A stretch of DNA of 64,000 nucleotides from Halobaculum sp. MBLA0143 (GCF_041361465.1 NZ_JBGKAC010000002.1:248001-312000), one strand, 5' to 3'; positions 15,312 to 32,499 are shown, numbered from the stretch's first letter. Translations and numbers: made by a program. Notes: generated by a model from the letters alone, not told the origin.

Positions 15312-16067
15312 TCACGCCAACAGCCCGCCGTCGACCCGTAGCACCGCTCCGGAGACGTACGAGGCGGCGGGACTGGCGAGGAACCCGATCACTTCGGCGA
15401 CCTCTTCCGGGTCTGCCAGGCGGTCCTGTGGAATGGGTTCCTCGGCGAGCACCGCCTCGGCGTCGTCGTACGGACCGGACGTCAACAACTGCGTCTCCGT
15501 GTACCCCGGACAGACGGCGTTGACGCGTACGTCACGGCTCCCGTACTCACGGGCGAGTGACCGAGTGAGCCCGACTAGTCCCGCCTTGCTGGCAGCGTAG
15601 TTGGCCTGTCCGGACCACCCACGAAGCGCGGCGACGCTGCTCACGTTCACCACCGACCCGCCGTCGCTGCGCAACATCTGACCCAGCGCGGCCCGGGAAC
15701 AGTAGAACGCCCCCGAGAGGTTCGTCTGCACGACACGCTCCCAGTTGTCGTCGGACAGGCGGACGGACAGCCCGTTCGCCATCGTCCCGGCGTTGTTGAC
15801 GAGCACGTCCACCGGTCCGAACTCCTCGCGGACCGCCTCGAACGCCGCCGCGACCGCGTCCGCGTCACCCACGTCGAACTGGTGCACTCGACTCTCCGTG
15901 TCGAACGACCCCAGTTCCGACTCCAGTTGTGCGGCTGCCGTCTCGTCGGCGCAGTACGTCGCTACCACGGACACGCCTCGTTCGGCCAGGTAGTGGACGA
16001 CCGCGCGACCGATCCCGCGCGTTCCACCCGTGACGACGGCGACCGTGTCGTCACCGTCAGGCCACAC
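15312..16067 (-). CDS. fabG: 3-oxoacyl-[ACP] reductase-like SDR
   Basis: A 251-residue short-chain dehydrogenase. TGGTRGIG is the NADP-binding loop, NNAG follows, and SSVAALRGWSGQANYAASK carries the Ser-Tyr-Lys catalytic set. VRVNAVCPGYTET and a C-terminal YVSGAVLRVDGG are typical of FabG. It should reduce a beta-ketoacyl thioester on the ACP encoded at the head of the operon. It is the last gene of a five-gene minus-strand operon, and its GTG start overlaps the end of the transacylase gene by 11 nt, indicating translational coupling. No dehydratase gene is visible in the block, so the product may keep a beta-hydroxyl or be processed elsewhere. Confidence 0.9.
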   Translation of the reverse strand: MWPDGDDTVAVVTGGTRGIGRAVVHYLAERGVSVVATYCADETAAAQLESELGSFDTESRVHQFDVGDADAVAAAFEAVREEFGPVDVLVNNAGTMANGLSVRLSDDNWERVVQTNLSGAFYCSRAALGQMLRSDGGSVVNVSSVAALRGWSGQANYAASKAGLVGLTRSLAREYGSRDVRVNAVCPGYTETQLLTSGPYDDAEAVLAEEPIPQDRLADPEEVAEVIGFLASPAASYVSGAVLRVDGGLLA

Positions 16068-16986
16068 TGTCGAACACCTCGCGAGCGTCCGTCGGCTCGT
16101 CGAGCGTCACTACCTCTCCGGAGACACCGGCGCGCTCGACGAGCGCCGCGAGTGTCCCGGCCGGCGGGAGTTCGACGTACCTGTCGACACCCGCCTCGTC
16201 GAGGTGCGCGACCACGTCCGTCCACCGGACGGGGTTCGTCAGTTGGGTTGCCAGCTGTGACCGAGCCCGACTCCCGTCCGTGTACGGATCGCCGGTCACG
16301 TCGGAGACGACGGGCGCGTCCGCAGTCTCGAACGCTGTCTCAGCCAGCGCGGCCTCGAACGGATCGACCGCCGAGGACATCAACGGCGAGTGGAAGGCGG
16401 TGCCGACGTCCAGTTCTTCGAACCTGGCAGTGTGTGTCTCCGACAGCTCCTCCCGAACGGCCGTGACCTGGTCGGTCGCGCCGCTGACGACCGTCTGTCG
16501 CCGGCCGTTGTACACCGCGACGGAGACGTCCGAGTAGTCTGCACACACCTCCGCGACGTCTCCGGGGTCGGTCAACAGGACCGCGACCATCGTCCCCGGG
16601 CCGTCTCGTTCCCCAGCACGCTGCATGAGCCGTCCACGTTCGGCGACGAGTTCGGCACCGGCACCCGCGGGGAGCGCCCCCGCGGCGGCGAGTGCAGTGA
16701 AGTGACCGAGACTGTGACCCGCGAAGAACGTCGGGTCGACGTCGAACCGTCGGTCGGTCGCACGTGCTGCCGTGACGCCGACCGCGAACACCGCCGGCTG
16801 TGTGTAGCGTGTCTCTCGGAGCCTGTCGTCGGAGCTCTCGAACACCAGTGTCTCCAGGTCGAGGTCGAGTGACCCGTCCAGACGGGCGAACGCCTCGCGG
16901 AACTCGGGCCAGGCATCGTAGAAGGCCGCTCCCATCCCGCTCGTCTGGCTCCCCTGACCGGGACACAGCAGCGCCGTCTCGGTCAC
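16057..16986 (-). CDS. fabD: Malonyl-CoA:ACP transacylase
   Basis: A 309-residue acyltransferase. PGQGSQTSGMG opens the fold. Ser92 in FFAGHSLGHFTAL is the catalytic nucleophile of the GHSxG motif, and TAFHSPLM provides the active-site His. It should load malonyl units onto the ACP for the ketosynthases. Its start overlaps the stop of the holo-ACP synthase gene by 4 nt. Archaea generally lack this ACP-dependent set, so horizontal acquisition with the rest of the operon is likely; codon use looks host-like by eye. Confidence 0.93.
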   Translation of the reverse strand: MTETALLCPGQGSQTSGMGAAFYDAWPEFREAFARLDGSLDLDLETLVFESSDDRLRETRYTQPAVFAVGVTAARATDRRFDVDPTFFAGHSLGHFTALAAAGALPAGAGAELVAERGRLMQRAGERDGPGTMVAVLLTDPGDVAEVCADYSDVSVAVYNGRRQTVVSGATDQVTAVREELSETHTARFEELDVGTAFHSPLMSSAVDPFEAALAETAFETADAPVVSDVTGDPYTDGSRARSQLATQLTNPVRWTDVVAHLDEAGVDRYVELPPAGTLAALVERAGVSGEVVTLDEPTDAREVFDSVA

Positions 16987-17441
16987 GACGGACCACCTCC
17001 GCCGACGGCGACGGTGACGACCGCCGTCGCCGTGTCGCTCTCGCGGTCGTGGGTCAGGCTGATGGCCGTGTCGACGGCAGCCGTCGACGGTGGTGCACCC
17101 ACCGTCTCGGTCAGTGCTCGCCTCGCCGTGTCCGCGACGGCGAGCCGTGGGGCGCCCGTCTCCGTCCGGTGGGTCGCAACGTCACGGAACGCGACCCGGC
17201 CGGGATCGTCCACCAGCTTCCTGGCAGCCTCCTTCACACACCACCGGGCGGCGTAGTGTTCGGCCGGGTGTCTGGTCCCGTCACAGTAGGCCCGTTCCTC
17301 GGTGGTGAACACGCGGTCGACGAACCCGGTCGCCTCGTCGGCGACGAGTCCGCGGATCCGTCCGATCGACACCGTGTCGACGCCCGTCTCGACCCGGACG
17401 TTCGGGAGGTCGGTCACCGGCGGCGAGGGCGGCTCAGACAC
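16983..17441 (-). CDS. acpS: Holo-[ACP] synthase (phosphopantetheinyl transferase)
   Basis: About 152 residues, the AcpS size class. GVDTVSIGRI near the N-terminus holds the Mg-binding Asp, FTTEERAYC matches the FT..E..YC motif, and AARWCVKEAARKL is the WxxKEA signature. It should transfer phosphopantetheine from CoA to the carrier serine of the ACP in the same operon. I start at GTG 17441, which overlaps the ketosynthase stop by 8 nt; a second GTG at 17417 is also possible. A dedicated phosphopantetheinyl transferase shows that the carrier protein is meant to be functional. Confidence 0.92.
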   Translation of the reverse strand: MSEPPSPPVTDLPNVRVETGVDTVSIGRIRGLVADEATGFVDRVFTTEERAYCDGTRHPAEHYAARWCVKEAARKLVDDPGRVAFRDVATHRTETGAPRLAVADTARRALTETVGAPPSTAAVDTAISLTHDRESDTATAVVTVAVGGGGPS

Positions 17442-18657
17442 GCTCGAACACCACTGCGCCGTTCGTCCCGCCGAAGCCGGCGGAGTTCGCGAGCACGACC
17501 TCCGGATCCGCGTCGCGCGGCTCCGTGACCACGTCGACGCCACAGTCCGGTGTCTCGTGGTTCACCGTCGGAGGGATCGTCCCCTCGTGGATCGAGGCGG
17601 CCGAGATCGCCCCCTCGATTGCCCCGCTCGCGCCGAGGGTGTGCCCGACGTTCCCCTTGTTCGCCGTCACCGGCGGCGGATCGTCGAACACTTCGTGGAG
17701 ACACAACGCCTCGTGATCGTCACCACGAGGAGTCGCCGTGGCGTGTGCGTTGACGTGATCGACGTCCGCCGGCGAACGGTCGGCGTCGGCCAACGCCCGT
17801 TCGATCGCCGCGATCAGCCCGCGTCCGTCGCTGGCCGGCCTGATCAGGTGGTCTGCGTCGGCGGACCGACCGACACCCGTGACCGCCGCGTACGCCGTCG
17901 CGCCACGCTCGGCGGCGTGGCTCGCCGACTCCAACACGAGCGCACCGGCGCCCTCGCCCAGGAGGAATCCGTCGCGGTCGGCGTCGAACGGCCTGATCGC
18001 CGCCGTCGGGGCGTCGTTCCGGCTGCTCATCGCCCGCAGCGAGTCGAACGCCGCGAGCCCGGTAGAGCAGACCCCGGCGTCGGCTCCCCCGGCGATCATC
18101 ACGTCGGCACGCCCGAGCCGAACGTCGTCGACGGCGTCGGCGATCGCGTGAGTCCCGGCCGCACACGCTGTCGATGGCGCCCGGTTCGGTCCACGTGCGT
18201 CGAACACGACACTCGCGTGACCGGCGACACTGCTGGTCAGCGACTGGATCGAGAACCGGGTGTCCGGGCGGCCTCCGTCCCGCATACGGAGCTGGTGTTC
18301 GTCGATCTCCAACTGTCCTCCGAGACAGCTCGCGTAGCTGACCCCGGCACGGGTCGGGTCCCAGTCCGGTCCGTCGTCGGCGTCGAACCCAGCGTCTGCA
18401 ACTGCCTCGCTGGCGGCGACGACCCCGAACTGTGCGTGACGACCCGCGCTGCGCTCGTCGACCGACGGGTGCGCCGACGGGTCCGCGGCGACCTCACAGC
18501 CGACCCGTGTTCGGAAGTCGTACCCGTAGGTGTCGAGGTCGAACTGCGTGATCGGACCGGCGCCGCTCTCGTGACCGAGCAACGACTCCCACGTCTCCGA
18601 GAGAGACCCTCCGACGGGAGTGATCGTGCCCAGGCCGGTGACAACCACGTCGTTCAT
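17434..18657 (-). CDS. fabF: Beta-ketoacyl-ACP synthase II
   Basis: A 407-residue condensing enzyme. The active-site Cys165 lies in APSTACAAGTHA, with the catalytic His residues in VNAHATATPRGD and KGNVGHTLGASGA. NSAGFGGTNGAVVF is the usual C-terminal loop. The Cys-His-His triad is complete, so it should perform decarboxylative condensation rather than act as a chain-length factor. It starts 3 nt after the ACP gene ends and overlaps the AcpS gene. A second, diverged ketosynthase at 31267-32499 flanks the far side of the lanthipeptide block. Confidence 0.95.
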   Translation of the reverse strand: MNDVVVTGLGTITPVGGSLSETWESLLGHESGAGPITQFDLDTYGYDFRTRVGCEVAADPSAHPSVDERSAGRHAQFGVVAASEAVADAGFDADDGPDWDPTRAGVSYASCLGGQLEIDEHQLRMRDGGRPDTRFSIQSLTSSVAGHASVVFDARGPNRAPSTACAAGTHAIADAVDDVRLGRADVMIAGGADAGVCSTGLAAFDSLRAMSSRNDAPTAAIRPFDADRDGFLLGEGAGALVLESASHAAERGATAYAAVTGVGRSADADHLIRPASDGRGLIAAIERALADADRSPADVDHVNAHATATPRGDDHEALCLHEVFDDPPPVTANKGNVGHTLGASGAIEGAISAASIHEGTIPPTVNHETPDCGVDVVTEPRDADPEVVLANSAGFGGTNGAVVFERV

Positions 18658-18660
18658 CCG

Positions 18661-18909
18661 TCAGTCTCGCCGCTCGGCGACGTAGGACTTCACCGCGCCG
18701 ACGGTCGTCAGCTCCTCTAAGTCCTCGTCTGGAACGTGAACGCCGAGTTCGTCCTCGACGAGCTCCGCCATCTCGACGATGTCCAACGACTCCGCAGCTA
18801 GCCCGTCGTCGTCGAAGGGCGTGTCGTCGTCGAACTCCGACTCGTCGACCAACAACGCGTCTGCGACGATCTCGTCTACCGTTTCGCTCGCCTCGTCCGA
18901 GAGTTGCAT
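18661..18909 (-). CDS. acpP: Acyl carrier protein
   Basis: An 82-residue, very acidic carrier protein. The phosphopantetheine attachment site is Ser41 in GLAAESLDIVEMAELVE; the usual Asp before the Ser is Glu here. The four-helix spacing and C-terminal VGAVKSYVAERRD fit ACPs of type II systems. It heads the operon ACP-ketosynthase-AcpS-transacylase-ketoreductase. A TATA-like CTTATCAA lies 28-38 nt upstream of the ATG. ACPs are mostly absent from archaea, which generally use ACP-independent fatty acid chemistry, so this gene is a strong marker of a secondary acyl pathway. Confidence 0.93.
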   Translation of the reverse strand: MQLSDEASETVDEIVADALLVDESEFDDDTPFDDDGLAAESLDIVEMAELVEDELGVHVPDEDLEELTTVGAVKSYVAERRD

Positions 18910-18936
18910 GTGTGTGAGAGTTATTTATCCTCTCGG

Positions 18937-19039: not shown

Positions 19040-20041
19040 CTACTGGCCCACTTCGAGCAACACCTTCCCGACGCTCTCCCTGTCTTCTACGTGTCGGTGT
19101 GCGTCGTCGGCCCGTCGCAGTGGGAACGACCTGTCGGTCACGAGTTCCAACTCGTCGCGGGCGAACCCGTCGAGCACCGCCTCGCGTGCCGACGCCACTC
19201 GCTGTGGGAGGTTCGTCTCGGCGTCTTCCAGGTGGTAGCCGACGACCGAACGGTTGTCGAACAACAGCCGGGGCGCGGCGACGCTCGGCACGTCACCGCT
19301 CGCCAGTCCGTACGTCACGAGTCTCCCCCCCGAAGCGAGCGTTCGGACGCTCCGTCGGAACGTCTTCCCACCGACGCCGTCGAGCACCAGGTCGAACCCG
19401 CCGTCGAGCTCGTCGGCTGCCACCTGTCGAATCGACTCCGTCGTGTAGTCGACAGCCCGGTCGGCACCCAGCTCTCGCGTCAACTCCCGCTTCTCTTCGG
19501 TACTGGCAGTAGTGTACACCGTACAGTCGACACTGTCGGTCAGCTGGAGTGCCGCAGTCCCGACGCCGCCCGCCCCGGCGTGGACCAACACCGTCTCTCC
19601 AGCCGTCAGCCCTCCACACGCGAACAGAGCGTTGTGTGCAGTCAGGAACTGAACTGTCCCGCTCGCGACCTCGAGGCCGACACCGTCGGGAACTCTGTGG
19701 ACGCGCGTCGCTGGAACGGTGATCGATTCCCGGTAACACTCCGGCTCGACGACGACGAACACGCGGTCACCGGGGTCGTAGTCCGTGTCGCTCCCGGCGT
19801 CGGCGACGCGCCCGGCAGCCTCCATTCCCGGTACGTACGGTGGGTCCGGCGAGTGAATGGCCTCTCGGTTCGGATACGTCCCACGTCGTTTCTCGATGTC
19901 CGCGAAATTGACACTCGTGTACGCGACTTCGATTCGTACTTCCGTCGGACCCGGCTCGGAGACGGCCCGCTCTGTCACCCGCAGTACCTCGGGCCCGCCG
20001 TGGTCGTCTGCGACAACTGCTCGCACAGTCGTTGTTCTCAC
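19040..20041 (-). CDS. MDR-family quinone/enoyl oxidoreductase
   Basis: A 333-residue zinc-independent medium-chain dehydrogenase. The N-terminal fold is followed by NADPH-binding VLVHAGAGGVGTAALQL (about 152-168), and no zinc-ligand pattern is visible. Relatives are NADPH:quinone reductases, and the same fold supplies the enoyl reductase of polyketide and fatty acid synthases. Next to the ACP operon an enoyl-thioester reductase role is attractive but inferred. It lies on the same strand 130 nt downstream of the divergent promoter region and upstream of the ACP gene. The GTG at 20041 is favoured by AGTATATTG about 30 nt upstream; a second GTG at 20026 is possible. Confidence 0.85.
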   Translation of the reverse strand: MRTTTVRAVVADDHGGPEVLRVTERAVSEPGPTEVRIEVAYTSVNFADIEKRRGTYPNREAIHSPDPPYVPGMEAAGRVADAGSDTDYDPGDRVFVVVEPECYRESITVPATRVHRVPDGVGLEVASGTVQFLTAHNALFACGGLTAGETVLVHAGAGGVGTAALQLTDSVDCTVYTTASTEEKRELTRELGADRAVDYTTESIRQVAADELDGGFDLVLDGVGGKTFRRSVRTLASGGRLVTYGLASGDVPSVAAPRLLFDNRSVVGYHLEDAETNLPQRVASAREAVLDGFARDELELVTDRSFPLRRADDAHRHVEDRESVGKVLLEVGQ

Positions 20042-20255: not shown

Positions 20256-21266
20256 GTGAGTCAGAACGATAAGCAAGACAGATCCGATATCCTCACCGTG
20301 CGTGACTTACAGAAGACGTACGGCAGCGGTGAGGAAGCCGTTACGGCGGTCGACGGCGTCAGTTTCGGCGTCGAGCGAGGCTCGATCACCGGGCTACTGG
20401 GGCACAACGGAGCCGGGAAGACGACGCTGATCAAGATGATTCTCGGGTTGGTGACCCCGACAGCCGGCTCCGTCGTCTTGGGGGACGAAGACGTCACCGG
20501 GCGGTCGAAGGCGGTGGCGAGCCGGGCTGCGGCCGTTCTCGAGGGCGCTCGGACGATGTACTGGCGACTCACCGTCAGGGAGAACGTGGAGTTCTTCACC
20601 CGACTGGCGGGAAACACTCCGGGCTCTCGCGCACAGCGAAACGAGGAGCTGTACGAGGCGTTCGACATCGCCCACCGCGTCGACAAGACGGTGAACGAGC
20701 TTTCGCGGGGAATGAAACAGAAGGCGTCTATCGTCACGGTGTTGTCACAGGAGCCGGACCTGCTGGTGTTAGACGAGCCGACTCTCGGACTGGATGTCGA
20801 GAGTTCACTCGAACTCAGACGACAGCTCCAGGAGATCGTCGCGGAACGCGACACGACCGTTCTGGTGTCGAGCCACGACATGGCCGTCGTAGAGGAGATC
20901 TGCGACCGGGCGGTGATCCTCTCGGACGGTGTGGTCGTCGCCGACGAGTCGGTCGCCTCACTGATGGACCTCTTCGAGACCCAGACCGTGACGGTGACGC
21001 TTACCAGCCCACCGGCCGAACTGTTGGACACGATCGAGTCGCGGTTCCGAGTGTCCACCCACGAGGCCATCGGTGACAGACACCAGATCGAACTCTCGAT
21101 CAAGAACTCCGCGGCGATGCACTCCCTCACCGGAGTCATCGCGGAACACGACGCGGCCTCGCCCGACATAGAGACCGCACAGCTCGACTTCGAGGAAGTG
21201 TACCTCCAGTTGACCAGGGAACAGGAACGAACGGACGACCGTTCGGAGAAGACGGCAAATGCGTGA
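20256..21266 (+). CDS. ABC exporter ATP-binding subunit
   Basis: A 336-residue ATPase of the ABC-2 (drug/bacteriocin exporter) type. GHNGAGKTT is Walker A, LSRGMKQK the signature, LLVLDEP Walker B, and SSHDM holds the switch His. A 100-residue C-terminal domain follows, as in DrrA/CcmA-like subunits. It overlaps the permease start by 8 nt. It sits directly upstream of the five precursor peptides, on the same strand, so export of or immunity to the mature lanthipeptide is the best guess. It is paralogous to the pair at 36521-38355: both share EGAR-x2-YWRLTVREN. There is no peptidase domain. Confidence 0.95.
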   Translation: MSQNDKQDRSDILTVRDLQKTYGSGEEAVTAVDGVSFGVERGSITGLLGHNGAGKTTLIKMILGLVTPTAGSVVLGDEDVTGRSKAVASRAAAVLEGARTMYWRLTVRENVEFFTRLAGNTPGSRAQRNEELYEAFDIAHRVDKTVNELSRGMKQKASIVTVLSQEPDLLVLDEPTLGLDVESSLELRRQLQEIVAERDTTVLVSSHDMAVVEEICDRAVILSDGVVVADESVASLMDLFETQTVTVTLTSPPAELLDTIESRFRVSTHEAIGDRHQIELSIKNSAAMHSLTGVIAEHDAASPDIETAQLDFEEVYLQLTREQERTDDRSEKTANA

Positions 21267-22032
21267 GTCACTCGATCTGTTCGTCGGAGTGCTGAAAAAG
21301 CGGCTCTTACTCCTGTACCGGTACCCACTCAACACCGTCGCGTACCTCTTCACACTGTACGGATTCTTCCTGTTAGTGTTCCTGGGCGGGCGGACGGTCG
21401 CCGGTGGGGCCTTCGACAACTCCGTCGACTCCCTCGTCGTCGGGTACTTCCTCGTCACGATGGCGTTTACCGCCTACAACGAACTGGCGAACGCCTTCTC
21501 CAAGGAGGCCTCGTGGGGGACGCTCGAACAGCTGATGATGTGTGACGCCGGCTTCGGTCGCCTCGCGACGTTCATCGCCGCCGCACAACTGCTCGTGGGT
21601 GCGTTCTTCGGCGGTGTGATCCTGGTTGCGGCCGTCCTGACCACCGGCGTGACGCTGTCCGTCCACCTGCCGAGCGTCGTCCCGATCATCTTGTTCGGCG
21701 TGGCGTCGGTCTCTGGCGTCGGGTTCGTGTTCGGTGGCGCAGCAGTGTTGTACAAGCGAATCTCGAACCTGTTCAACGCGGTCCAGTTCGCCTTCATCGG
21801 ACTGGTGGCGGCGCCGGTCCAGCAGATCCCGGCACTGAAGCTACTCCCGTTGACTCAGTCTAGCTGGCTGCTCCAGCGTGTGATGCGCGACGGTGTCGTG
21901 ATCTGGGAGCTCCCGCCGACGGAGCTGGCGATTCTCGTCGCAACGGGGGTCGGGTACTTCGGACTCGGCCACCTCGTCATGCTCCGGCTCGTGAGCGTCG
22001 CGCGTGCCCGAGGTGTCGTCGGGCACTACTGA
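21259..22032 (+). CDS. ABC-2 exporter permease subunit
   Basis: A 257-residue membrane protein with about six helices, of the ABC-2 permease family. It starts within the ATPase gene (8-nt overlap), so the two form one transporter. SWGTLEQLMM and GGAAVLYKRIS are the amphipathic loops typical of this family and recur in the second permease at 36521. By position it probably moves the lanthipeptide products out of the cell or protects the producer. No peptidase-bearing LanT transporter is present, so leader removal would need another protease. Confidence 0.92.
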   Translation: MRESLDLFVGVLKKRLLLLYRYPLNTVAYLFTLYGFFLLVFLGGRTVAGGAFDNSVDSLVVGYFLVTMAFTAYNELANAFSKEASWGTLEQLMMCDAGFGRLATFIAAAQLLVGAFFGGVILVAAVLTTGVTLSVHLPSVVPIILFGVASVSGVGFVFGGAAVLYKRISNLFNAVQFAFIGLVAAPVQQIPALKLLPLTQSSWLLQRVMRDGVVIWELPPTELAILVATGVGYFGLGHLVMLRLVSVARARGVVGHY

Positions 22033-22136
22033 ACACCCAAACGCCGCCGACTCTTCCGTCGCGAGTTGACTCTATCTCCTCTCCGACGGGAGATCTGTTT
22101 TATTGCCTATAACAAAAAACCACTTCTAATCGCCAG

Positions 22137-22144
22137 ATTTAACT
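22137..22144 (+). promoter_or_regulatory. TATA box of precursor 1
   Basis: ATTTAACT lies 27-34 nt before the ATG at 22171. The same element stands before precursor 3 at 22694-22701. Confidence 0.55.
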
Positions 22145-22170
22145 CACACGCTCCGGAATAGACGGTTGCA

Positions 22171-22287
22171 ATGTCGATCAACACCGACATCGAGACGGAG
22201 TACACGCCCAGCACGCCGACTGTCGAGGACGCAGACGACCGACAGCTCACCGGTTCCTGTGTCAGCGACTCCTGCGAAGAGAACTAA
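22171..22287 (+). CDS. Lanthipeptide precursor peptide 1
   Basis: A 38-residue peptide. It has an acidic leader (MSINTDIETEYTPSTP, VEDADDRQLT) and a short C-terminal core, GSCVSDSCEEN. The core has two Cys four residues apart, with Ser between and before them, i.e. candidates for dehydration and thioether ring closure. All five precursors in this block share E-x-YTP, P-x-V, R-x-L and GSC-x4-C. It has its own promoter and is read in the same direction as the LanM gene 1.2 kb downstream. No double-Gly cleavage motif is present; Gly-Ser precedes the first Cys. Too short for standard gene callers. Confidence 0.88.
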   Translation: MSINTDIETEYTPSTPTVEDADDRQLTGSCVSDSCEEN

Positions 22288-22413
22288 CTCCGACCGACCG
22301 GCGGTCCAGTTCCCACAGAGGGCAGTCGATCGACCGGTCACCGCTTCGACGAGAACCGGTGACTCTGATCGGTTGCCTCTTTTTCCGACAAAATCTTTGA
22401 AGCTGACGACAGA

Positions 22414-22421
22414 GTTAAGTT
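22414..22421 (+). promoter_or_regulatory. TATA-like box of precursor 2
   Basis: GTTAAGTT lies 26-33 nt before the ATG at 22447, the same spacing as in the other precursor genes. Confidence 0.4.
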
Positions 22422-22446
22422 CAACTGAGTTAAATTGGTGGTTGCA

Positions 22447-22560
22447 ATGTCGAACAACCCCGACATCGAGACGGAGTACACGCCTAGCACACCAACCGTC
22501 GAGGACGTAGACGACCGACAGCTCACCGGCTCCTGCATCAGCGGGACGTGTAACGACTGA
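22447..22560 (+). CDS. Lanthipeptide precursor peptide 2
   Basis: A 37-residue peptide, MSNNPDIETEYTPSTP at the start and GSCISGTCND at the end. Leader and GSC-x4-C spacing match precursor 1. The core differs: Thr instead of Ser before the second Cys, and Gly for Asp in the middle. That would give a methyllanthionine instead of a lanthionine if Thr is used, so the product is chemically distinct. Same strand, own promoter. Confidence 0.88.
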   Translation: MSNNPDIETEYTPSTPTVEDVDDRQLTGSCISGTCND

Positions 22561-22689: not shown

Positions 22690-22857
22690 CCAGATTTAAC
22701 TCACACGCTCCGGAATGGACGGTTGCAATGTCGATCAACACTGACATCGAGACGGAGTACACGCCCAGCACGCCGACCGTCGAGGACACAGACGACCGAC
22801 AGCTCACCGGTTCCTGTGTCAGCGACTCCTGCGAAGAGAACTAACTCCGATCGACCA
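22690..22857 (+). repeat. Direct repeat, copy 2 (precursor gene duplication)
   Basis: Nearly identical to 22133-22300, offset by 557 nt. Differences are a few single bases, mostly silent or outside the core. Confidence 0.9.
22728..22844 (+). CDS. Lanthipeptide precursor peptide 3
   Basis: A 38-residue peptide differing from precursor 1 by one leader residue (VEDTDDR for VEDADDR). Its core GSCVSDSCEEN is identical. Both the gene and its promoter come from the 168-bp duplication, so the recent copy raises dosage of the same product. Confidence 0.88.
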   Translation: MSINTDIETEYTPSTPTVEDTDDRQLTGSCVSDSCEEN

Positions 22858-22970: not shown

Positions 22971-23087
22971 ATGTCGGAAACGACAACCCGAGTCGAGGAG
23001 GAGTACACGCCGAACGTCCCGACCGTCGACGAATCGAACGAGCGGAAGCTGTTCGGCTCCTGCACCAGCGACACCTGCCAAGCGTAA
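22971..23087 (+). CDS. Lanthipeptide precursor peptide 4
   Basis: A 38-residue peptide of a second subtype: MSETTTRVEEEYTP, PTVDESNERKLF, then GSCTSDTCQA. The leader keeps YTP and the R/K-x-L before GSC but is otherwise diverged from precursors 1-3. Thr occurs after the first Cys and before the second. Own promoter, same strand. Confidence 0.88.
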   Translation: MSETTTRVEEEYTPNVPTVDESNERKLFGSCTSDTCQA

Positions 23088-23215: not shown

Positions 23216-23350
23216 ATGTCGGAAGCGACAACCCGAGTCGAGGAGAACTACACACCGACCGCCCCAGCAGTCGACGGGTCGAACGAACGACAACTGTTCG
23301 GTTCCTGTGTCTGCGACTCCTGTGACAAGGACGGCTGCACGGGCATCTGA
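23216..23350 (+). CDS. Lanthipeptide precursor peptide 5
   Basis: A 44-residue peptide with the longest core. The leader is MSEATTRVEENYTP...SNERQLF as in precursor 4; the core is GSCVCDSCDKDGCTGI with four Cys. GSC-x4-C is kept, with an extra Cys inside it and one near the end, and only two Ser and one Thr as dehydration sites. At least one Cys may therefore stay free or form a disulfide. It is the last precursor before the LanM gene. Confidence 0.87.
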   Translation: MSEATTRVEENYTPTAPAVDGSNERQLFGSCVCDSCDKDGCTGI

Positions 23351-23506: not shown

Positions 23507-26500
23507 ATGTCACGAGACGAGATACCCCTCGACACTGCGACACTCACCGCCCGGGCCACACCGCTGTACGACCGGCTCGGTGGCGGCGACAGCGACGACT
23601 CGGTTCCCCCCGTCATCGACTCGGCGTCACTCCGCGAGGAGTGGCGAGCGTCGCTGGCACCGGCCGACGACGGCGCGTGGGCCGCCCGGTTGACACACCT
23701 CGACGCGTCGCCGACGGCGTCGATCGCCGACCCAGTGCCAGACAGCGACGCGGGATGGGTCGACACTCTCCGCGCGCTCGTCGACTCGTTGCTCGACGAG
23801 GAACTGTCCCCGTCGGACGACCGGGAAGACGAGGCACCGTTCACACACGTCGTCGAACCGATCGTGTCGTTTGCCGCCGAGCCGTGTGAGTTCGGGCCCG
23901 TGCTCGCTCCGTCGGCGGTCTCGGATCTCCGTGCGGAACTCGCCGGGCGGCTCCGCCGTGTGCTCGCACAGGCGTTGTTCGTCGAGTTCAAACTCGCCGC
24001 GGACCCAGAGGCGGAGGGTGTCGTCTCTGTCACCGACGTTCCGACGGGGACGGGTCGCCCGCGCTACTCCGCGTTCGTGGCCCGACTCACCGCAGACGGG
24101 CTCGCCGGGTTCTTCGAACGGTACCCCGTCGCCGGACGGCTTACGGCGACGATCGTGTCCGAGTGGCGCGACCGCGTCGTACGGCTGGCGGAACGCGCCC
24201 GTGCAGACCGCGCCACGTTGGCCGACCGGTTCGACGAGGGCACGGCGCCGGGACCAGTCGTCGATGTCTCGGCGACCGGAGACCCACACGACGGCGGGGA
24301 GTGTGTCTCTCGTGTCGAGTTCGACTCCGGGCTGACGCTCGCGTACAAGCCACGGCCGGTCGACGCGCACGCAGCGTTCGACGAGTTCTGTGAGTGGCTC
24401 GCCACCGAGACCGATCTCTCACTCCCACACCGCGCGACGGTCGTCACACGAGACGGCTACGGCTGGGTCGAGTGGCTCGAACAACGCGACTGTGAAGACG
24501 AGGCCGCGGTCGAACGGTACTACCGTCGTATCGGAACGCTCGCCTGCCTGTCGTACGTGCTCCGGTTCACTGACGGCAACTACCAGAACCTGGTCGCCGT
24601 CGGCGAACGACCCGCGTTGATCGACCTAGAGACGGTCTGTCGCCCGGCGTACCCGGACGAGGGTGGGTTCGGCCAGCCCGAGTTGGCCGAGATCGTCGAC
24701 GAGTCCGTTCTCTCGACGGGGTTGTTCCCGGTCGTCACCGCCGAAGACGACATCGTGGGTGTCGGTGGGCTCGACGACCCGGGGGAACGCGAGACGTCGA
24801 TCCCCACCCGGAACTTCCAGGCCGTCAACACCGACGAGATGGAACTCACGTTCGATCACACGACGACACACGACGGCCGGAACCAACCGACGGTCGACGG
24901 CCAGCCACACGGTCCGGACGACTACGGGACGGAGATACTCGCGGGGTTCGAGCAGGCGGCGAGCGTGGTCGCCGCGGAACGCGACCGGCTCGCCGACCCG
25001 AGCGGCCCGTTGTCCGGGTTCGAGAGCGTCGAGATCCGGACGTTCCTCCGCAGCACGATGGAGTACACTCGTGTCCGACGGCCGCTCGTCACGACGGAGT
25101 ACCTCCGTTCTGGGGGGAAGCGAGACGTTCGCGTCGAGACGTTGCTCAAGCGGGTCGACTTCACGGCCGCAGACGAGCGACGAACGGCGTTGTTCCGGGC
25201 CGAGCGTGCTGCCATCGACCGTGGCGACGTGCCGCGCTTGACGATCCAGACGGACGACACGGCGGTCTCCTGTGGCGGTCGAACCGTCCCGGGTGTCCTC
25301 GAAGAGACGCCGTTCGAGCAACTGCTGGCGCACGTCGCCGAGCTCGGCGAGTCGACACTCCGAGAACAGGCGGACTACCTCAAACTGGCCTACGAGCCTC
25401 GTGAACTCCGTCTCCCGGACCCACCATCGGCGCCGGCGACAGCCCCGCGATTGACAGACGACCGACTCCGTAGTGTCGTCGCCGGTGTCGTCGACCGAGT
25501 CCACGATGCCGCCGTCGAGACGGACGACGGCACCACGCGCTGGTACGTCCGAGAGGGCCGCCCGGGTGGGGTCCACGTACACGACCTCCGAGACGACTTG
25601 TACGGCGGACGCCTCGGGCTGGCGACGTTCGGGGCAGCCGCACAACGGGTTCTGTCCGGACCAGTGGCACGGCGTGCGGCCACGATCACCGACGAGGCAG
25701 TCGCGCCGGTCCTCGACAGCGTGCGGGCAGACGACCTCCCCACGGAGAAACTCGGCGTCTGTCACGGCCGCGGCTCGTTCGTGTACGCGCTGGTGAACCT
25801 GTGGCGTCTCCGAGACGACGACCGATTCCTCGACGCTGCCGTGCGGGTCGCAGACACCGTCCCCGAGCTCGTCGGCGACGACGACGTGTACGACCTGATC
25901 GGGGGGGCTGCCGGCGGCGCGCTGGCGCTGTCGACACTCGCGGACGCGACAGACGACAGCCGGCACCGCCAGACTGCAGTCGACCTCTGTGATCACCTGT
26001 TGTCGGAACGGATCGACCACGACGGTGTTCGCGTCTGGGAGACGCACGACGGTCCCGAGCGTGCACTCGTCGGCGCCGGCCACGGGATCGCCGGGATCGC
26101 ACTCGCGCTGGGGCGAGTCGGCGCCACAGTCGACGCGCCACGGTTCAAGCAGGCGGCCGCAGATGCGCTCCAGTTCGAACGCGACCTGTACGACTCCGAA
26201 CGAGGAGGCTGGCCGGACTTCCGACTCGGGACGTACCGACGGGGGTGGTGTGCCGGTGCTGCCGGGATCGCGCTCACCCGTGCAGAGCTGATCGCGGTCG
26301 ACGACAGACCGGCGTACCGACGGGACTTGGACCGTGCCGTGGAGTCGATGCAGACGGGGAAGCTCCACGACCGTGACCACCTCTGTTGTGGCAACCTCGG
26401 TCACGCAGCCGTGACACGGCGCGTCGACGAACTGTGTAACCGACCGTTGCTCGCACGTCGCGGGCGGGCGCTGGCCGCACGCAGCCTCGCACGCGGCGAC

Positions 26501-26632
26501 GACGACTCTACGCTCGCGTACGACACCGACCAGTGGTACAATCCGACGCTGTTCTTGGGTGATCCCGGGGTCGGGTACGCCGCCTGCCGACTACTCGATT
26601 CGACAGTTCCGTCGCTGTTGGCCGTCGAGTGA
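23507..26632 (+). CDS. lanM: Class II lanthionine synthetase LanM
   Basis: A 1,041-residue bifunctional enzyme. Residues about 150-650 are the DUF4135 dehydratase, with LAYKPR (Lys281), TDGNYQNL (Asp356, Asn361) and ALIDLET (Asp373, Glu375). In characterised LanMs the second motif is D-x-H-x-x-N; here the His is Asn358. Residues about 690-1041 are the LanC-like cyclase: zinc ligands Cys915 (GWCAGAAGI) and Cys960-Cys961 (LCCGNLGH). The CCG form, giving three Cys ligands, is shared with ProcM-like enzymes that accept many substrates, fitting five different precursors. It should phosphorylate and dehydrate Ser/Thr and close thioether rings. I use the ATG at 23507; an in-frame GTG at 23420 is possible. 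Confidence 0.96.
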   Translation: MSRDEIPLDTATLTARATPLYDRLGGGDSDDSVPPVIDSASLREEWRASLAPADDGAWAARLTHLDASPTASIADPVPDSDAGWVDTLRALVDSLLDEELSPSDDREDEAPFTHVVEPIVSFAAEPCEFGPVLAPSAVSDLRAELAGRLRRVLAQALFVEFKLAADPEAEGVVSVTDVPTGTGRPRYSAFVARLTADGLAGFFERYPVAGRLTATIVSEWRDRVVRLAERARADRATLADRFDEGTAPGPVVDVSATGDPHDGGECVSRVEFDSGLTLAYKPRPVDAHAAFDEFCEWLATETDLSLPHRATVVTRDGYGWVEWLEQRDCEDEAAVERYYRRIGTLACLSYVLRFTDGNYQNLVAVGERPALIDLETVCRPAYPDEGGFGQPELAEIVDESVLSTGLFPVVTAEDDIVGVGGLDDPGERETSIPTRNFQAVNTDEMELTFDHTTTHDGRNQPTVDGQPHGPDDYGTEILAGFEQAASVVAAERDRLADPSGPLSGFESVEIRTFLRSTMEYTRVRRPLVTTEYLRSGGKRDVRVETLLKRVDFTAADERRTALFRAERAAIDRGDVPRLTIQTDDTAVSCGGRTVPGVLEETPFEQLLAHVAELGESTLREQADYLKLAYEPRELRLPDPPSAPATAPRLTDDRLRSVVAGVVDRVHDAAVETDDGTTRWYVREGRPGGVHVHDLRDDLYGGRLGLATFGAAAQRVLSGPVARRAATITDEAVAPVLDSVRADDLPTEKLGVCHGRGSFVYALVNLWRLRDDDRFLDAAVRVADTVPELVGDDDVYDLIGGAAGGALALSTLADATDDSRHRQTAVDLCDHLLSERIDHDGVRVWETHDGPERALVGAGHGIAGIALALGRVGATVDAPRFKQAAADALQFERDLYDSERGGWPDFRLGTYRRGWCAGAAGIALTRAELIAVDDRPAYRRDLDRAVESMQTGKLHDRDHLCCGNLGHAAVTRRVDELCNRPLLARRGRALAARSLARGDDDSTLAYDTDQWYNPTLFLGDPGVGYAACRLLDSTVPSLLAVE

Positions 26633-27187
26633 CTACATACTCTCCCAGACCGCTTCAGTGCCGTCCCACTCGTGACGCAGCATGTCGAGCAACACGACGT
26701 CGATCTCCTCGCCGTCGAACGTCACCATCTCTCGTTTCCGCCCGGTCTGTGTGAAACCGACGCCCTTCGCTCCCTCGATAATCGGTGCGTTGGTCTCCAT
26801 CGTCTCGATCTCCAGCCGGTGGAGACCGAGCTGTCGGAACCCGTAGTCGACGATCTGGACCGTCGCGTCGACGCTGATCCGCGACGGCTGCTGTTCCGGT
26901 GCTACCCAGATCCCGAGCCCGCCGGTCCCGTGTTGCCAGTCGATCGGCGCAATCTGCACGTAGCCCACCGGATCGGACTCGTCGACCGGTACCATCAGCA
27001 GCCCGACGTTCTCGCCACAGTCGATGGTCTCGTACCGTTCTCTGACCCGCGCCTCGTTGTGAGGGAGATCCGTGTAGTACTGCTGTATCTCCGGGTGGTT
27101 CAGGTACTTCCGGAGAAACGGGATGTCCTCTTCTTCGACGGTACACAGCTCGACGTGTCTCCCCTCGATGAAAGTTGCACCCGGCAT
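26633..27187 (-). CDS. GNAT-family (RimJ/RimL-type) acyltransferase
   Basis: A 184-residue N-acyltransferase. GRHVELCTVEEEDIPFL opens the fold, and LHRLEIETMETNAPIIEGAKGVGF is close to the RimJ/RimL acyl-CoA-binding region. It converges on the LanM gene (0-nt gap). Family members acetylate N-terminal amines. In goadvionin-type lipolanthipeptide pathways a GNAT enzyme joins an acyl-ACP chain to the peptide N-terminus, and here an ACP system is 8 kb away. So N-acylation of the lanthipeptide is a reasonable inference. Simple acetylation for self-protection is the alternative. Start ATG 27187, with TATA GTTTTAAGT 25-33 nt upstream. Confidence 0.9.
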   Translation of the reverse strand: MPGATFIEGRHVELCTVEEEDIPFLRKYLNHPEIQQYYTDLPHNEARVRERYETIDCGENVGLLMVPVDESDPVGYVQIAPIDWQHGTGGLGIWVAPEQQPSRISVDATVQIVDYGFRQLGLHRLEIETMETNAPIIEGAKGVGFTQTGRKREMVTFDGEEIDVVLLDMLRHEWDGTEAVWESM

Positions 27188-27239: not shown

Positions 27240-29702
27240 TCACTCGTGCAAGCGATGCCACAATGCCAGCAGCGACGGAAGGACGAACACGCTGGCGAGG
27301 AAGGCACCGACGAGCGCGAGCCCGACGACGGAACCGATGTTCGACGTCTGGTCGAACGGTGAGATGGCGAGCGTTCCGAACACGGAGACGGTCGTGATCG
27401 TCGACCCGAGCAACGCTCCACCGGTGCCTCTGAGGGAGCGTTCCAACGCGTCGAACGGTTCGTCGTCACCCGTCACCTCGTCCGCGAACCGGTCCGTCAC
27501 GTGGATGGAGTAGTCCACCCCGAGGCCGATCACCAGCCCGATCATCAGCGCGGTGAACAACGTGATCGGGACGCCCAACAGCAGCATCCCGAGTGAGATC
27601 AACGCGACCACGAGCGCGACGGGGACGAACGCGATCACACCGAGGAGTGCGCTCCCCTCGACGACTCTGTACACGAGCGCCAACAGGAGCAACACCGCTA
27701 CGAGCGAGACCACGACGGTCTGGAACACGCTGCCGATCACGGCACGCAACAGCGCGGCCGTGATGGACTGCCGGCCGGTCACGTACGCGCCCACGCCGTC
27801 GAGTTCGCCCACCGGCTGGACAGTCTCTCGTATCGTGTTGTCGACCACCACCGCGTCGCTCGTCTGTTCGGTCTCCACCACCAGCCGGAGGGACCGGTAC
27901 TCGTCGCCCTCCCGTTCGACGACACTCGCCGCGGTGTCGGGTGCGACACGGTAGAACGCGTCGTAGACGCCGGTAACGTTCTGTTCTGGGACGCCGTCGT
28001 CGTCCGTGTCCGCCCGTTCGAACACGTCACCGAACCGGTCACTCTCGTCTGCGACCCGCCGCATCTCCGTCAACGGTCCGGTCGTCTCGGCGAGCCCACC
28101 CTGGCGACGGAAGGCGACGGGGCTCTCTGCGGCCGCCTCCCGACTCTCGTCGAGTCGTTCGAGCGCCTCTGGATCGGCCACCGACCCTTGTATCAGGATC
28201 TGTGTGGGGCGCGACTCCGGATCGGACGAGAGGTACGTCTCCTCGACGTACGCACGGTTCTCGAGGAACGGGTACTGCTCGACACCCAACGGCTCCGGTA
28301 GTTCCTGTGACCAGTCGTCCGGTTCGCTGATCCCCGTCTGGAGGCTCTGATCGAGCTGCGTCCACGCGAACACTCCACCGGCGCCGGCGACGACCGCGAC
28401 GACGACGACCGCCACCGCGGACAGCCGAGCGGCGGAGACACCGGCGGTGAGTACGCCCGCGACTCGGTCCCCGTTACCGACCGGCTGATTGTCCGGCCCC
28501 GAGAGGAACCGTGTTCTGAGACCGTCCAGCTCCAGCTTCGCCGCCGGAACGAGCGTCACGAACACCAAGAACGTGGCGACGATTCCGAGAGACATCGCGG
28601 CCGTCAGGTTCCGCACGTCCGACAACGGGTTCGTCACGTTCGAGAGGAACCCGACCGCGGTGGTCACGGTCACGAGCGCGAGCGCGACACCGACGGCCGA
28701 CAGCGCTCGACGCATCGGGCCACGCCGTCCCTCACCCGGCTCGTGGTTCTCCCGGAACCGCATGAAGATGTGGAAACTGTAGTCGATGGAGAGCCCGATG
28801 ATGAGGATGACCGCGATGGTGCCGGCGGTGCCGAACGGAATCGACAGCCACCCCATCAGTCCGGCCGTCGCCACCAGCGACGAGAGGACGCCGAACAGCC
28901 CCACGAGGATGTCACCCAGGTCACGGTAGGCGACGATCATGGTGAGGATCATCACCAGCAGTGCGATCGGTCCGGTCAGTTCGAGGATGTCCTGGTTCAC
29001 CCGCGAGAACGTCCCGTCGCCCGCCGGACCAGAGAGCATGAAGTAGTCACTCTCGGCTGTCGCCGGGAGCTCGGCGAACAACACTTCACCGAGACGTTCT
29101 GCGGTCGCTCCGCCACTGTCCTCCGACGCGAGCGAGTCGTCGGGCACCACGAACACTATCCGTCGCCCGGTCGCCGTCGCCGTGCCGGGCTCGTAGCTGT
29201 TCGGCATCAACTGCAGTGCCCGACTCTCCGCCGACAGCAGTTCTCGCTCGATCTCGTCTATCTGGTCGGCGTCTGCCCGTTCTAACGCCGTGAACCGTTT
29301 CTCGTAGCTGGCAGCGGGGTTGCCGGTCAGCTGCGAGGTGACCGCGACGGCGATGCTCGCAGTCTGCCCGTCCTCTCGGATCACCCCCCCGACAGTCTCG
29401 TTGTCGGTGACGCGTCTGTGGAACTCGAGTGAACGGCGAAGCGAGTCCCGGTCGAGGACGTCTCCGTCTCCGTCGCGGACGTACACGGCGTACACCGTCT
29501 GGTTCGACCCGCCGACCGGATAGTTGTCGACGATGTAGTCTAACTTCTGTTCTGCAGTCGAGTTCACCTGGAGTGAACCCCCGTCGGCGCTCGGAATACT
29601 GGCGGCACCGACGGCGAGGCCGGCCAACAACACCAGAGTGACGGCCACCGTCAGCTTGCTCCGGCCGGCGACGACCGACGCGAGTCGGCTCACGACGCTC
29701 AC
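27240..29702 (-). CDS. MmpL/RND-superfamily exporter
   Basis: An 820-residue membrane protein with the two-fold RND layout: TM1 (VAVTLVLLAGLAVGAAS), a large outer loop (about 40-215), a five-helix bundle with GLSIDYSFHIFMRFRE, then the second half (about 425-820) with GLGVDYSIHVTDRFADE. The paired D-Y-S-x-H motifs are typical of the hydrophobe/amphiphile exporter (MMPL) branch, whose members move lipids and lipopeptides. Lying between the GNAT and the monooxygenase, it is a candidate exporter for an acylated product. GTG start. Confidence 0.93.
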   Translation of the reverse strand: MSVVSRLASVVAGRSKLTVAVTLVLLAGLAVGAASIPSADGGSLQVNSTAEQKLDYIVDNYPVGGSNQTVYAVYVRDGDGDVLDRDSLRRSLEFHRRVTDNETVGGVIREDGQTASIAVAVTSQLTGNPAASYEKRFTALERADADQIDEIERELLSAESRALQLMPNSYEPGTATATGRRIVFVVPDDSLASEDSGGATAERLGEVLFAELPATAESDYFMLSGPAGDGTFSRVNQDILELTGPIALLVMILTMIVAYRDLGDILVGLFGVLSSLVATAGLMGWLSIPFGTAGTIAVILIIGLSIDYSFHIFMRFRENHEPGEGRRGPMRRALSAVGVALALVTVTTAVGFLSNVTNPLSDVRNLTAAMSLGIVATFLVFVTLVPAAKLELDGLRTRFLSGPDNQPVGNGDRVAGVLTAGVSAARLSAVAVVVVAVVAGAGGVFAWTQLDQSLQTGISEPDDWSQELPEPLGVEQYPFLENRAYVEETYLSSDPESRPTQILIQGSVADPEALERLDESREAAAESPVAFRRQGGLAETTGPLTEMRRVADESDRFGDVFERADTDDDGVPEQNVTGVYDAFYRVAPDTAASVVEREGDEYRSLRLVVETEQTSDAVVVDNTIRETVQPVGELDGVGAYVTGRQSITAALLRAVIGSVFQTVVVSLVAVLLLLALVYRVVEGSALLGVIAFVPVALVVALISLGMLLLGVPITLFTALMIGLVIGLGVDYSIHVTDRFADEVTGDDEPFDALERSLRGTGGALLGSTITTVSVFGTLAISPFDQTSNIGSVVGLALVGAFLASVFVLPSLLALWHRLHE

Positions 29703-29807: not shown

Positions 29808-31040
29808 CTACGGTAACCGAGGGGCGACGCGGTCGGCGAACGACTCGTACTGCTCCAGCCGGGTGGACCGCGAGAGACCCGGGACGACGACGCTCGGAAT
29901 GATCGCCAGGTCGTCGTAGTCACACACCGACGCGAGCTCGGAGAACCGTTCGACCAGGTGGTCGGTGTCACCCACGATGGGGGCGTCGCCGGACTCGATT
30001 ACCGCGTCCGCGTCGATGGGAATACTCGCCGCCTGTTCTTCGGAGGCACTGGACCGTCGAACGCTCAACAGCACCTCCTGTCCGGTTCGCCACTCGTCGA
30101 CTTCCGACTCGCTCGCCACGGACGTGTCGAAACACTGTATCTCGGCGACGACGCCTCGGCGCCGCTGCGGGTCCCACCCACGCCCGAACGGCTCACCGTC
30201 GAGCGACGGGCGTCGGTCCGGCCAGTCGGCCGCGGCAGCCGCCTCGTGGTACCGGTCGACCATCTCGGCGAGGTCGTCGAAGTACTGACAGTACGTACAG
30301 ACGTTGGCACCGCGGCGTGCCGCGCCGGCGGCGGTGTCCGGCGAGACCGTGACCTGCCACATCTGTGGCCGGGGGCGCTGCTGGGGGAGTGGTGTGACGT
30401 GGAGGCCGGTCTGCACTGTCTCCTCGCCGTCCATCCCCACGAACGACCCGAGATCACGGTCTTCACCCGCGGCGAAGTAGGAGTACTCCAGGTCGTCACC
30501 CCAGTCGAGGCCCGCGGGCGGAACTGTCGACTGTTCTCCCTCGTGGCTGACCGGACCGTCGGCCCACGCTGCACGCAGCAACGACTCGTACTCGTCGAAG
30601 ATCTCTCCCGGCTCCCCTTCCGGTTCGAACAGCGCTCGTTCCCGGTCGCCAGACCCGGTCGCCACGCCGACGTCGAGCCGTCCGCCGGAGAGAACGTCGA
30701 TCGTCGCCGCCTGTTCGGCGAGTCTCACCGGGTCTCGCTGCGGGAGCGAGATCGCCGCCTGCAACAGCCGAATCTCGTCCGTCCGCGCAGCGACGAACGC
30801 CTGGACGAGCAACGGGTCTGGAGCGGTCTGCACGAGCGGGTCGAAGTGGTTCTCCGAGTGGACGACGAAGTCGTAGCCGAACTCCTCTGCGGCGACCGCC
30901 ATCTCGACTTGTGTCTCCGTCGCTCGTCGGTGCGACTCCCGCAGCTCCGCGAGGTCCGAGTCCGGACCCACGTACCCGTTGTCGTACTCTGTGGTCGGAT
31001 AGCCGATGAACCCTTCACAGTGACAGCCGATGGTCACCAT
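29808..31040 (-). CDS. Luciferase-like (LLM) flavin monooxygenase
   Basis: A 410-residue TIM-barrel oxidoreductase of the bacterial-luciferase-like superfamily. EEFGYDFVVHSENHF, LSGGRLDVGVATGSGDRE and LFEPEG are characteristic segments. It should use FMNH2 or F420; haloarchaea make F420, so either is possible. Such enzymes also tailor polyketides and nonribosomal peptides. It sits next to the MmpL exporter on the same strand and diverges from the second ketosynthase gene, so a tailoring role on the acyl chain or peptide is plausible. Confidence 0.88.
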   Translation of the reverse strand: MVTIGCHCEGFIGYPTTEYDNGYVGPDSDLAELRESHRRATETQVEMAVAAEEFGYDFVVHSENHFDPLVQTAPDPLLVQAFVAARTDEIRLLQAAISLPQRDPVRLAEQAATIDVLSGGRLDVGVATGSGDRERALFEPEGEPGEIFDEYESLLRAAWADGPVSHEGEQSTVPPAGLDWGDDLEYSYFAAGEDRDLGSFVGMDGEETVQTGLHVTPLPQQRPRPQMWQVTVSPDTAAGAARRGANVCTYCQYFDDLAEMVDRYHEAAAAADWPDRRPSLDGEPFGRGWDPQRRRGVVAEIQCFDTSVASESEVDEWRTGQEVLLSVRRSSASEEQAASIPIDADAVIESGDAPIVGDTDHLVERFSELASVCDYDDLAIIPSVVVPGLSRSTRLEQYESFADRVAPRLP

Positions 31041-31266
31041 GGGTCACATAACCTCTGCCACAAGTAAATTTCTTTTGTCAGAAGGTCACTTATCTGACGA
31101 GAGAAGAATCTCATCGTCGGGTGACGTGTGAGCCAAGGATCCCAGTCGAGCAGCCGACCGCACCACTCGAATTAGTTTGTGCCCGGGAACGGGAGGACTT
31201 TAGTCACACCGGTATGGAGTGAGTGTGTGCAACGTAGCTGTCGAGCCCCTCTGGAGGTGGGAAGCC

Positions 31267-32499
31267 GTGCTCGGTGACGACGAGTCACCCGTCGTCACCG
31301 GCGTCGGGCTGCTGACCGCCGGCGGCGAGAGCCGCTCGACGACCTGGGAGACGATCAGAGACGGAGACAGTCGCCTGACGCCACCGACGGAGGTTCACCC
31401 AGCCGTCACGGAGCAGTACGACGTCCACGTCGTCGGCAGAGCGACCGAGTTCGACCCGCAGACAGTGTCGGGGTACGACCGCCGCACGACCGGGCGGTAC
31501 GCCGCGTTCGCGCTCGACGCAGCCGAAGAGGCGCTGATCGACGCCGCGCTCGACCCGGACGGACCCGACTGGACGGCCGACCGAGTGGGCGTCAGCGTCG
31601 CCTCCGTCTTCGGTGGACTCGACGAGATCCTCGCGGAGTACGACACGGATCGGTCGCGGGTGTCGTCGTACCTCGCGACGAAGTCGTTGGGGAATCTCGC
31701 GGCCGGCCACGTCGGGATGACCGTCGGAGCACGTGGTCCCAACCGGACGCAGGCGACTGCCTGTGCGGCCGGCACACACGCTCTCGACGCCGCAGTAACC
31801 GACCTGCGCCGCGGCCGGGCCGACGTGATGCTCGTCGGCGGAGCCGAAGCCGTCCTCAACTACTACGGTATCGCCATGACCGCCGCCCCACGGGCGTACA
31901 CGAGCCGCGCCGGACCGGACGCCGTCCGCCCGTTCGACGAGTCCCGTGACGGACTCGCGCTCGGCGAAGGGGCGGCAGTGATGATCGTCGAGACCGCCGC
32001 TCACGCGCGCGACCGGGGTGTCGAGCCGTACGCCCGTGTCACCGGCGTCGGTGCGACGGCCGACGCACACCACCCAGTCAGTCCCCCGACTGACGGGCAC
32101 GGACTCCAACGGTCGATGCAGATGGCGCTGTCGGAGGCCGACGTCTCTCCCGACGCCGTCGACTACGTCAACACACACGGAACGGGGACGGTCGCGGGGG
32201 ACACGGCGGAGGCCAACGCCGTCGAGACCGTTCTCGGAGAAGACACTCCGATAACCTCGGTCAAGGGAGCGATCGGACACACGTACGGTGCGGCAGGTGC
32301 GATCGACGCGGCCGTGACGGCACTGTCCGTCGACCGCGACACGGTCCCCGCGACGGCGAACGTCGAGACGCCCGACCCGGAGATCACCCCGCCGGTCGTC
32401 ACGACCCCGACCGACGAGTCGGTCGACACCGTCGTCTCCAACTCCGCCGGCTTCGGTGGGACCAACGGCTCCATCGTGTTCGAGACACCGGACCGGTGA
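31267..32499 (+). CDS. Second beta-ketoacyl synthase (KAS II type)
   Basis: A 410-residue condensing enzyme with a full triad: Cys166 in QATACAAGTHA and His in VNTHGTGTVAGD and VKGAIGHTYGAAGA. It ends NSAGFGGTNGSIVFE. It is clearly diverged from the operon ketosynthase, so it likely has another chain length or partner. It shares none of the Gln/Glu-for-Cys changes of chain-length factors. I start at GTG 31267, which gives LGDDESPVVTGVG; an in-frame GTG at 31219 adds 16 residues atypical of the family. With the ACP operon it brackets the lanthipeptide genes. Confidence 0.93.
   Translation: MLGDDESPVVTGVGLLTAGGESRSTTWETIRDGDSRLTPPTEVHPAVTEQYDVHVVGRATEFDPQTVSGYDRRTTGRYAAFALDAAEEALIDAALDPDGPDWTADRVGVSVASVFGGLDEILAEYDTDRSRVSSYLATKSLGNLAAGHVGMTVGARGPNRTQATACAAGTHALDAAVTDLRRGRADVMLVGGAEAVLNYYGIAMTAAPRAYTSRAGPDAVRPFDESRDGLALGEGAAVMIVETAAHARDRGVEPYARVTGVGATADAHHPVSPPTDGHGLQRSMQMALSEADVSPDAVDYVNTHGTGTVAGDTAEANAVETVLGEDTPITSVKGAIGHTYGAAGAIDAAVTALSVDRDTVPATANVETPDPEITPPVVTTPTDESVDTVVSNSAGFGGTNGSIVFETPDR

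Follow-up and report, generated by a model that had tools for sequence, protein, structure and literature searches.

The window analysed here, a stretch of 64,000 nucleotides of Halobaculum sp. MBLA0143 (C2:248001-312000), forms part of a large, plasmid-like contig of 589 kb in this haloarchaeal genome. Between positions 15312 (the FabG stop) and 32499 (the KS2 stop) it contains a block formed by two modules, a class II lanthipeptide cluster and a haloarchaeal acyl carrier protein (ACP) operon, with a second ketosynthase gene (KS2) located beyond the lanthipeptide genes. Gene calls in combination with Pfam and NCBIfam matches confirm every gene of the block, and all the genes named by a first-pass annotation of this DNA are real and lie where it had placed them. 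No second copy of the whole block was found in the plasmid records searched.

The class II synthetase LanM (23507..26632, plus strand, ATG start inferred) matches PF13575 (1.6e-93) and PF05147 (9.5e-42) and scores 606 bits against TIGR03897, whose cut-off is 304. Both the dehydratase and the LanC-like domains are present, the WCxG and CCGN motifs of the LanC-like zinc site are kept, and the protein agrees with the consensus at 94 of 103 conserved columns in an alignment of 43 haloarchaeal LanMs. Upstream of LanM, five small open reading frames on the plus strand are recognised by their sequence as precursors with acidic leaders and C-terminal GSCxxx[ST]C cores: precursor 1 (MSINTDIETEYTPSTPTVEDADDRQLTGSCVSDSCEEN, 22171..22287, core GSCVSDSC), precursor 2 (MSNNPDIETEYTPSTPTVEDVDDRQLTGSCISGTCND, 22447..22560, GSCISGTC), precursor 3 (22728..22844, GSCVSDSC), which equals precursor 1 except for one A to T change, precursor 4 (MSETTTRVEEEYTPNVPTVDESNERKLFGSCTSDTCQA, 22971..23087, GSCTSDTC) and precursor 5 (MSEATTRVEENYTPTAPAVDGSNERQLFGSCVCDSCDKDGCTGI, 23216..23350, GSCVCDSC), the only one with a lysine in its core. 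Judged by its gene anatomy, this is firmly a genuine archaeal class II lanthipeptide cluster. Repeated elements (ATTTAACTCA ... GGTTGCAATG) lie upstream of precursors 1-3 (22100-22180, 22400-22450 and 22690-22730), and the regions preceding precursors 4 and 5 differ. The genome has five LanM-like places, four of them besides the block: L150 (C2:213500-233400), L144, L164 and L174 (C1). Two of these further loci show similar SCxxxSC cores (SGSCTLLSC and ESCVSLSC) and have no luciferase-like gene of the kind described below.

Two exporters accompany the peptide genes. An ABC pair on the plus strand, formed by an ATPase (20256..21266, PF00005) and a permease (21259..22032, weak PF12698 match), has homologues beside many haloarchaeal LanMs. 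The second, on the minus strand (27240..29702), is an MmpL/HAE3-like RND transporter (PF03176, 3e-31), which the first-pass annotation had read as a lipid or lipopeptide exporter; that assignment finds no support, as the protein scores below the cut-offs of the named transporter families, TIGR00921 among them, and such scores say nothing on a lipopeptide cargo.

A further minus-strand gene encodes a luciferase-like flavin enzyme (LLM; 29808..31040; PF00296, 9e-40). Together with its close relatives (>290 bits) it occupies seven places in 190 genomes, each no more than about 5 kb from a LanM: two in G008, two in G031 and one each in G174, G114 and the window. Five more distant relatives have no LanM beside them in the stretches read. 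Because the close relatives all adjoin LanM, the LLM most likely belongs to the peptide pathway and not to the acyl machinery; it had been proposed as part of an acylation set, and this LanM-cluster enzyme occurs also where an ACP operon is lacking. The loci point to an LLM-associated type of archaeal lanthipeptide cluster, and no description of this LanM-associated subfamily was found in the literature searched. The cores at other LLM-bearing loci are DSCWSSSC (G174, three copies), DSCGFNSC (G031) and DSCGSESC (G008), and no core of this DSC type was seen at the G114 locus (L153). The clusters L121, L123, L153 and L222 carry the LLM (in two copies in G031), mostly together with an MFS exporter, and in G008 with an Eis-type GNAT. 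A structure model of the LLM, of moderate quality, is most like flavin mononucleotide (FMN) monooxygenases. We considered a role as an F420-dependent dehydroalanine reductase; by fold and by sequence FMN monooxygenases come nearest, with F420 enzymes lower-ranked, and we keep this role as a possibility only.

The second module, an acyl-chain machinery of bacterial style (for fatty acids or polyketides), lies on the minus strand and comprises a FabG-like SDR 3-oxoacyl-ACP reductase (15312..16067; PF13561, 4e-66; TIGR01830, 3e-76; an operon member in relatives), the malonyl-CoA:ACP transacylase FabD (16057..16986; PF00698, 1e-41; TIGR00128, 2e-71), the holo-ACP synthase AcpS (16983..17417, start uncertain; PF01648, 1e-12; W-x-x-K-E-A motif), the FabF-like ketosynthase KS1 (17434..18657; TIGR03150, 2e-117) and the ACP (18661..18909; PF00550, 1.6e-11). 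The operon is headed by an MDR-family oxidoreductase (19040..20041; PF00107; TIGR02824, 4e-67), a possible enoyl-ACP reductase that was not named in the first-pass annotation and that adjoins the operon in most relatives. KS2 (31219..32499, plus strand; TIGR03150, 1e-104) is fast-evolving, with a branch of 1.11 in the ketosynthase tree. The catalytic motifs are in place in KS1 and KS2 (Cys, His, His), ACP (ESL serine), FabD (GHSLG) and FabG (YxxxK). Ketosynthase, ketoreductase, malonyl transacylase, ACP and AcpS of a type II fatty-acid set are all there; no dehydratase was found in the block, and four MaoC genes lie on another, larger contig of the genome.

In relatives the operon, searched with FabD as marker, has the order ACP-KS-AcpS-FabD-FabG, usually with the MDR oxidoreductase. 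It is present in 16 of 392 genomes of the order and in 25 genomes in all after family searches (one of them a weak match on a 5-kb contig), and among 148 genomes from its family the window alone carries it. When genome contigs were scanned with KS1, mostly bacterial FabF came back, and the result was usable only for Natronorubrum, one haloarchaeal metagenome-assembled genome and outgroups. In 14 of the 25 carriers a further gene stands with the operon, and among solved structures its product comes closest to R2-like ligand-binding oxidases and related ribonucleotide-reductase small subunits (E 3e-15; loci L095/L096 (G164), L108-L113, L224-L230, L233 and L240:4048-4899). This gene was first taken as TenA/UndA-like, and comparison with the PDB led to its reassignment. 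The Haloferax mediterranei plasmid pHME505 carries an operon of the same order as the block, oxidoreductase-ACP-KS-AcpS-FabD-FabG, with relatives 40-60% identical, but it differs from the block in having an R2-like oxidase gene (77% identical, annotated 'hypothetical protein') and in not being near a LanM. A search of the window genome, which had no positive control, gave no R2-like oxidase. No description of the link between operon and oxidase was found in the literature searched; through this link an enzyme family whose natural substrate is unclear becomes connected with an acyl-chain operon.

Haloarcula offers a different setting, in which the ACP operon (L241 of the plasmid of sp. JP-L23, L115 and L116) is joined by P450, mandelate-racemase-like and MetE-like genes and by GNATs, two of them smaller and a third, annotated one resembling the Eis type. 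This conserved cluster looks, from its genes, like a secondary-metabolite cluster, and we know of no description of it. At L117 (G227:C2:34000-53900), a divergent ACP/KS locus, there are two FabD genes and, by eye, MaoC-, carboxylase- and aldehyde-dehydrogenase-like genes; the locus perhaps represents a fuller archaeal acyl pathway. The comparison across genomes identifies the ACP operon as a portable module.

Between LanM and the MmpL gene lies a GNAT (26633..27187, minus strand; PF13302), tail to tail with LanM and collinear with MmpL and LLM. The first-pass annotation had seen in it the enzyme that, as in the goadvionins, joins an acyl chain carried by the ACP to the peptide. The protein is a single domain of 184 residues whose frame is intact, with no frameshift or stop, and belongs to a generic haloarchaeal RimJ/RimL-like family with members, often several per genome, in 124 of 190 genomes. 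Compared with 31 aligned relatives it deviates at 13 of 50 conserved columns, and the changes G103R (in the coenzyme A (CoA) loop), A127I, S136I and E148T affect four sites that are invariant in all 31; with Y167L, the altered positions include the Ser of the NxxS motif and the Tyr of the YGLLxxEW motif. Another relative of the family deviates at 12 of 51 columns, and in this alignment the window GNAT is unique by the nature of the changed sites and not by their number. Its fold is kept in the model (pLDDT 80), with 9iy3, an acetyltransferase acting on lasso peptides, as one structural neighbour (TM 0.80).

A normal acyltransferase activity is unlikely for such a sequence, and use of an unusual donor is possible. 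Transfer of an acyl group from the ACP by this GNAT is in our view improbable: the fold is retained, GNAT, ACP, KS and LanM stand together, and an ACP-bound donor could conceivably suit a protein that has lost the CoA pyrophosphate loop, but the loop glycine, the NxxS Ser, the conserved Ala and Glu and the YGLLxxEW Tyr are gone from a single-domain member of a generic family, and none of the 31 relatives shares these changes. Rather probably the GNAT has nothing to do with acyl-ACP and serves in immunity, acetylates peptides or is in decay, which fits whether or not the two modules act together; family and structural neighbour agree with this role and the degenerate site suits decay or a non-catalytic function, although the reading frame is intact over its full length. 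An Eis-type GNAT with an SCP2-like domain, different from the window GNAT, adjoins LanM in G174 and G008. A search of 190 genomes with the G174 protein ranks that of G008 first, and in these two genomes the Eis-type GNAT would be the better candidate for acyl transfer.

Lipolanthines and goadvionins are class III products with an N-terminal lipid attached by a GNAT (PMC13060382). The block resembles them in combining lanthipeptide genes with chain-building genes (KS1, KS2, FabD, FabG, ACP and AcpS) and a GNAT, and differs in having a class II LanM (the LanKC model gives 49 bits against a cut-off of 575), in the absence of a flavoprotein decarboxylase (avionin ring) among the Pfam families of its genes, and in its degenerate, single-domain GNAT. 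Selidamides and nostolysamides share with the block a lanthipeptide synthetase, a class II LanM in nostolysamides, with an adjoining GNAT; the nostolysamide GNAT is a tandem protein with a clear P-loop that acylates a Lys side chain from acyl-CoA (PMC13060382), whereas that of the block is not of this tandem type, has lost the P-loop, and would find a Lys acceptor only in precursor 5. The archaeal class II lanthipeptides described previously (PMC10105419, PMC12144867) likewise have LanM-type synthetases, small precursors and haloarchaeal hosts, but the block is adjoined in addition by an ACP operon, a second KS, an LLM and an MmpL. The main text of the 2023 paper (PMC10105419) contains none of the terms acyl, GNAT, fatty acid and luciferase, and that of the 2025 paper (PMC12144867) none of these nor ketosynthase. 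In the open-access literature searched, neither acylated archaeal lanthipeptides nor a function for the ACP operon turned up.

The genes of the block thus comprise an intact LanM with five precursors and an intact ACP/KS system, as far as can be read from the DNA. We tentatively favour, at a confidence slightly short of even, an LLM-associated class II lanthipeptide cluster beside which a portable haloarchaeal ACP operon was recruited. A functional link between the two modules is plausible. In the window, the lanthipeptide genes lie between KS genes. In G174, which belongs to another family, the modules are interleaved, with the oxidoreductase on one side of LanM and ACP-KS-AcpS-FabD-FabG on the other, and the LLM, an MFS exporter, the Eis-type GNAT, LanM and three precursors (DSCWSSSC) between them. 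Of the five genomes whose LanM is of the LLM type, three carry the operon, compared with 7 of 190 overall (P 3e-4, or 0.005 without the window). Under uniform placement, the P for the modules being adjacent in at least two of the four genomes that carry both is about 0.006-0.012. Since G174 interleaves the modules and genomes with LLM-type LanMs are enriched for the operon, coincidence may not be the whole story. One clade (SH-aLRT 82) holds the LanMs of both the window and G174, which are not sisters (approximately unbiased (AU) test, p 0.007); for the operon, a KS test of this question gives p 0.079, which fits either relation. The G174 LanM pairs with that of G008, a genome that has its ACP operon on a different contig. 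The long-branched window LanM was grouped with L127/L133/L148 in a first FastTree tree, and a better model moved it to the clade of G174, L121 and L123.

Several observations weigh against this reading. The first-pass annotation had named independent occurrence of operon and LanM in relatives as evidence against its own reading, and the two are indeed mostly apart: LanM is present in 38 and the operon in 16 of 392 genomes, with both in four and adjacency in two (the window and G174). Four shared genomes against 1.6 expected is borderline (P 0.058), and LanM in general, tested against the operon with the window left out, shows no clear association (P 0.17, in a smaller sample). These association tests were picked post hoc, assume uniform placement and ignore phylogeny. 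The LLM-type clusters of G031 and G114 have no operon, and in 23 of 25 carriers no LanM was seen beside the operon, which often forms a unit with the R2-like oxidase (for nine carriers found later, LanM was looked for only within about 10 kb of the operon). The search for a promoter motif common to both modules found none, giving repeats of the precursor promoters and short matches at chance level. The degenerate GNAT, moreover, is a poor candidate for the joining enzyme and is probably not it.

It is quite possible, though below an even chance, that two independent pathways merely adjoin here, one a lanthipeptide cluster of the ordinary archaeal kind and the other a stand-alone ACP operon with its own fatty-acyl or polyketide product. 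The operon is usually found alone and in varied contexts, whether with the R2-like oxidase, with P450, GNAT and MetE genes in Haloarcula, or others; LanM occurs without it in 34 of 38 genomes; and another LanM lies about 50 kb away on the same contig, so that peptide genes are dense there. The interleaved gene sets of G174, the position of KS2 on the far side of LanM and the enrichment in LLM-type genomes argue against such independence.

Under the recruitment reading, we propose from the enzyme families that LanM would dehydrate Ser and Thr and close thioether rings in the small GSCxxx[ST]C cores, and that the ABC pair would export the peptide product. The LLM may oxidise or otherwise tailor the peptide, given that other LanM genes have its close relatives beside them. 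The operon, with KS1, KS2, the malonyl transferase and the ketoreductase, would build an acyl or hydroxyacyl chain on the ACP, and there is a modest case for the modules serving one product or a joint function. A lipo-lanthipeptide pathway had been proposed for this block, a reading that is supported in part: its genuine class II cluster and ACP/KS system do stand side by side, with the same pairing in G174, and an acyl group on the peptide is hypothetical. Four of five cores lack lysine, which excludes N-acylation of a side chain in them and leaves only the N-terminus as a site; if the modules act jointly, the acyl group would thus sit on the N-terminus freed by leader removal. The resulting archaeal acyl-lanthipeptide, a minimal class II lanthipeptide with an N-terminal acyl chain from a dedicated ACP operon, the pairing occurring in at least two haloarchaeal families, is conceivable, and we regard it as somewhat doubtful.

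Archaeal membranes are built from isoprenoids, and to our knowledge the general view is that ACP-dependent fatty-acid synthesis of the bacterial type is absent from archaea. If used in secondary metabolism, a portable ACP operon would show what such machinery serves for in archaea. Even if the modules are not joined, the LanM-associated LLM subfamily and the pairing of operon with R2-like oxidase provide two testable associations. If an acyl product does join the lanthipeptide, the result would be an archaeal lipopeptide of a new class, with neighbouring haloarchaea as its possible targets.

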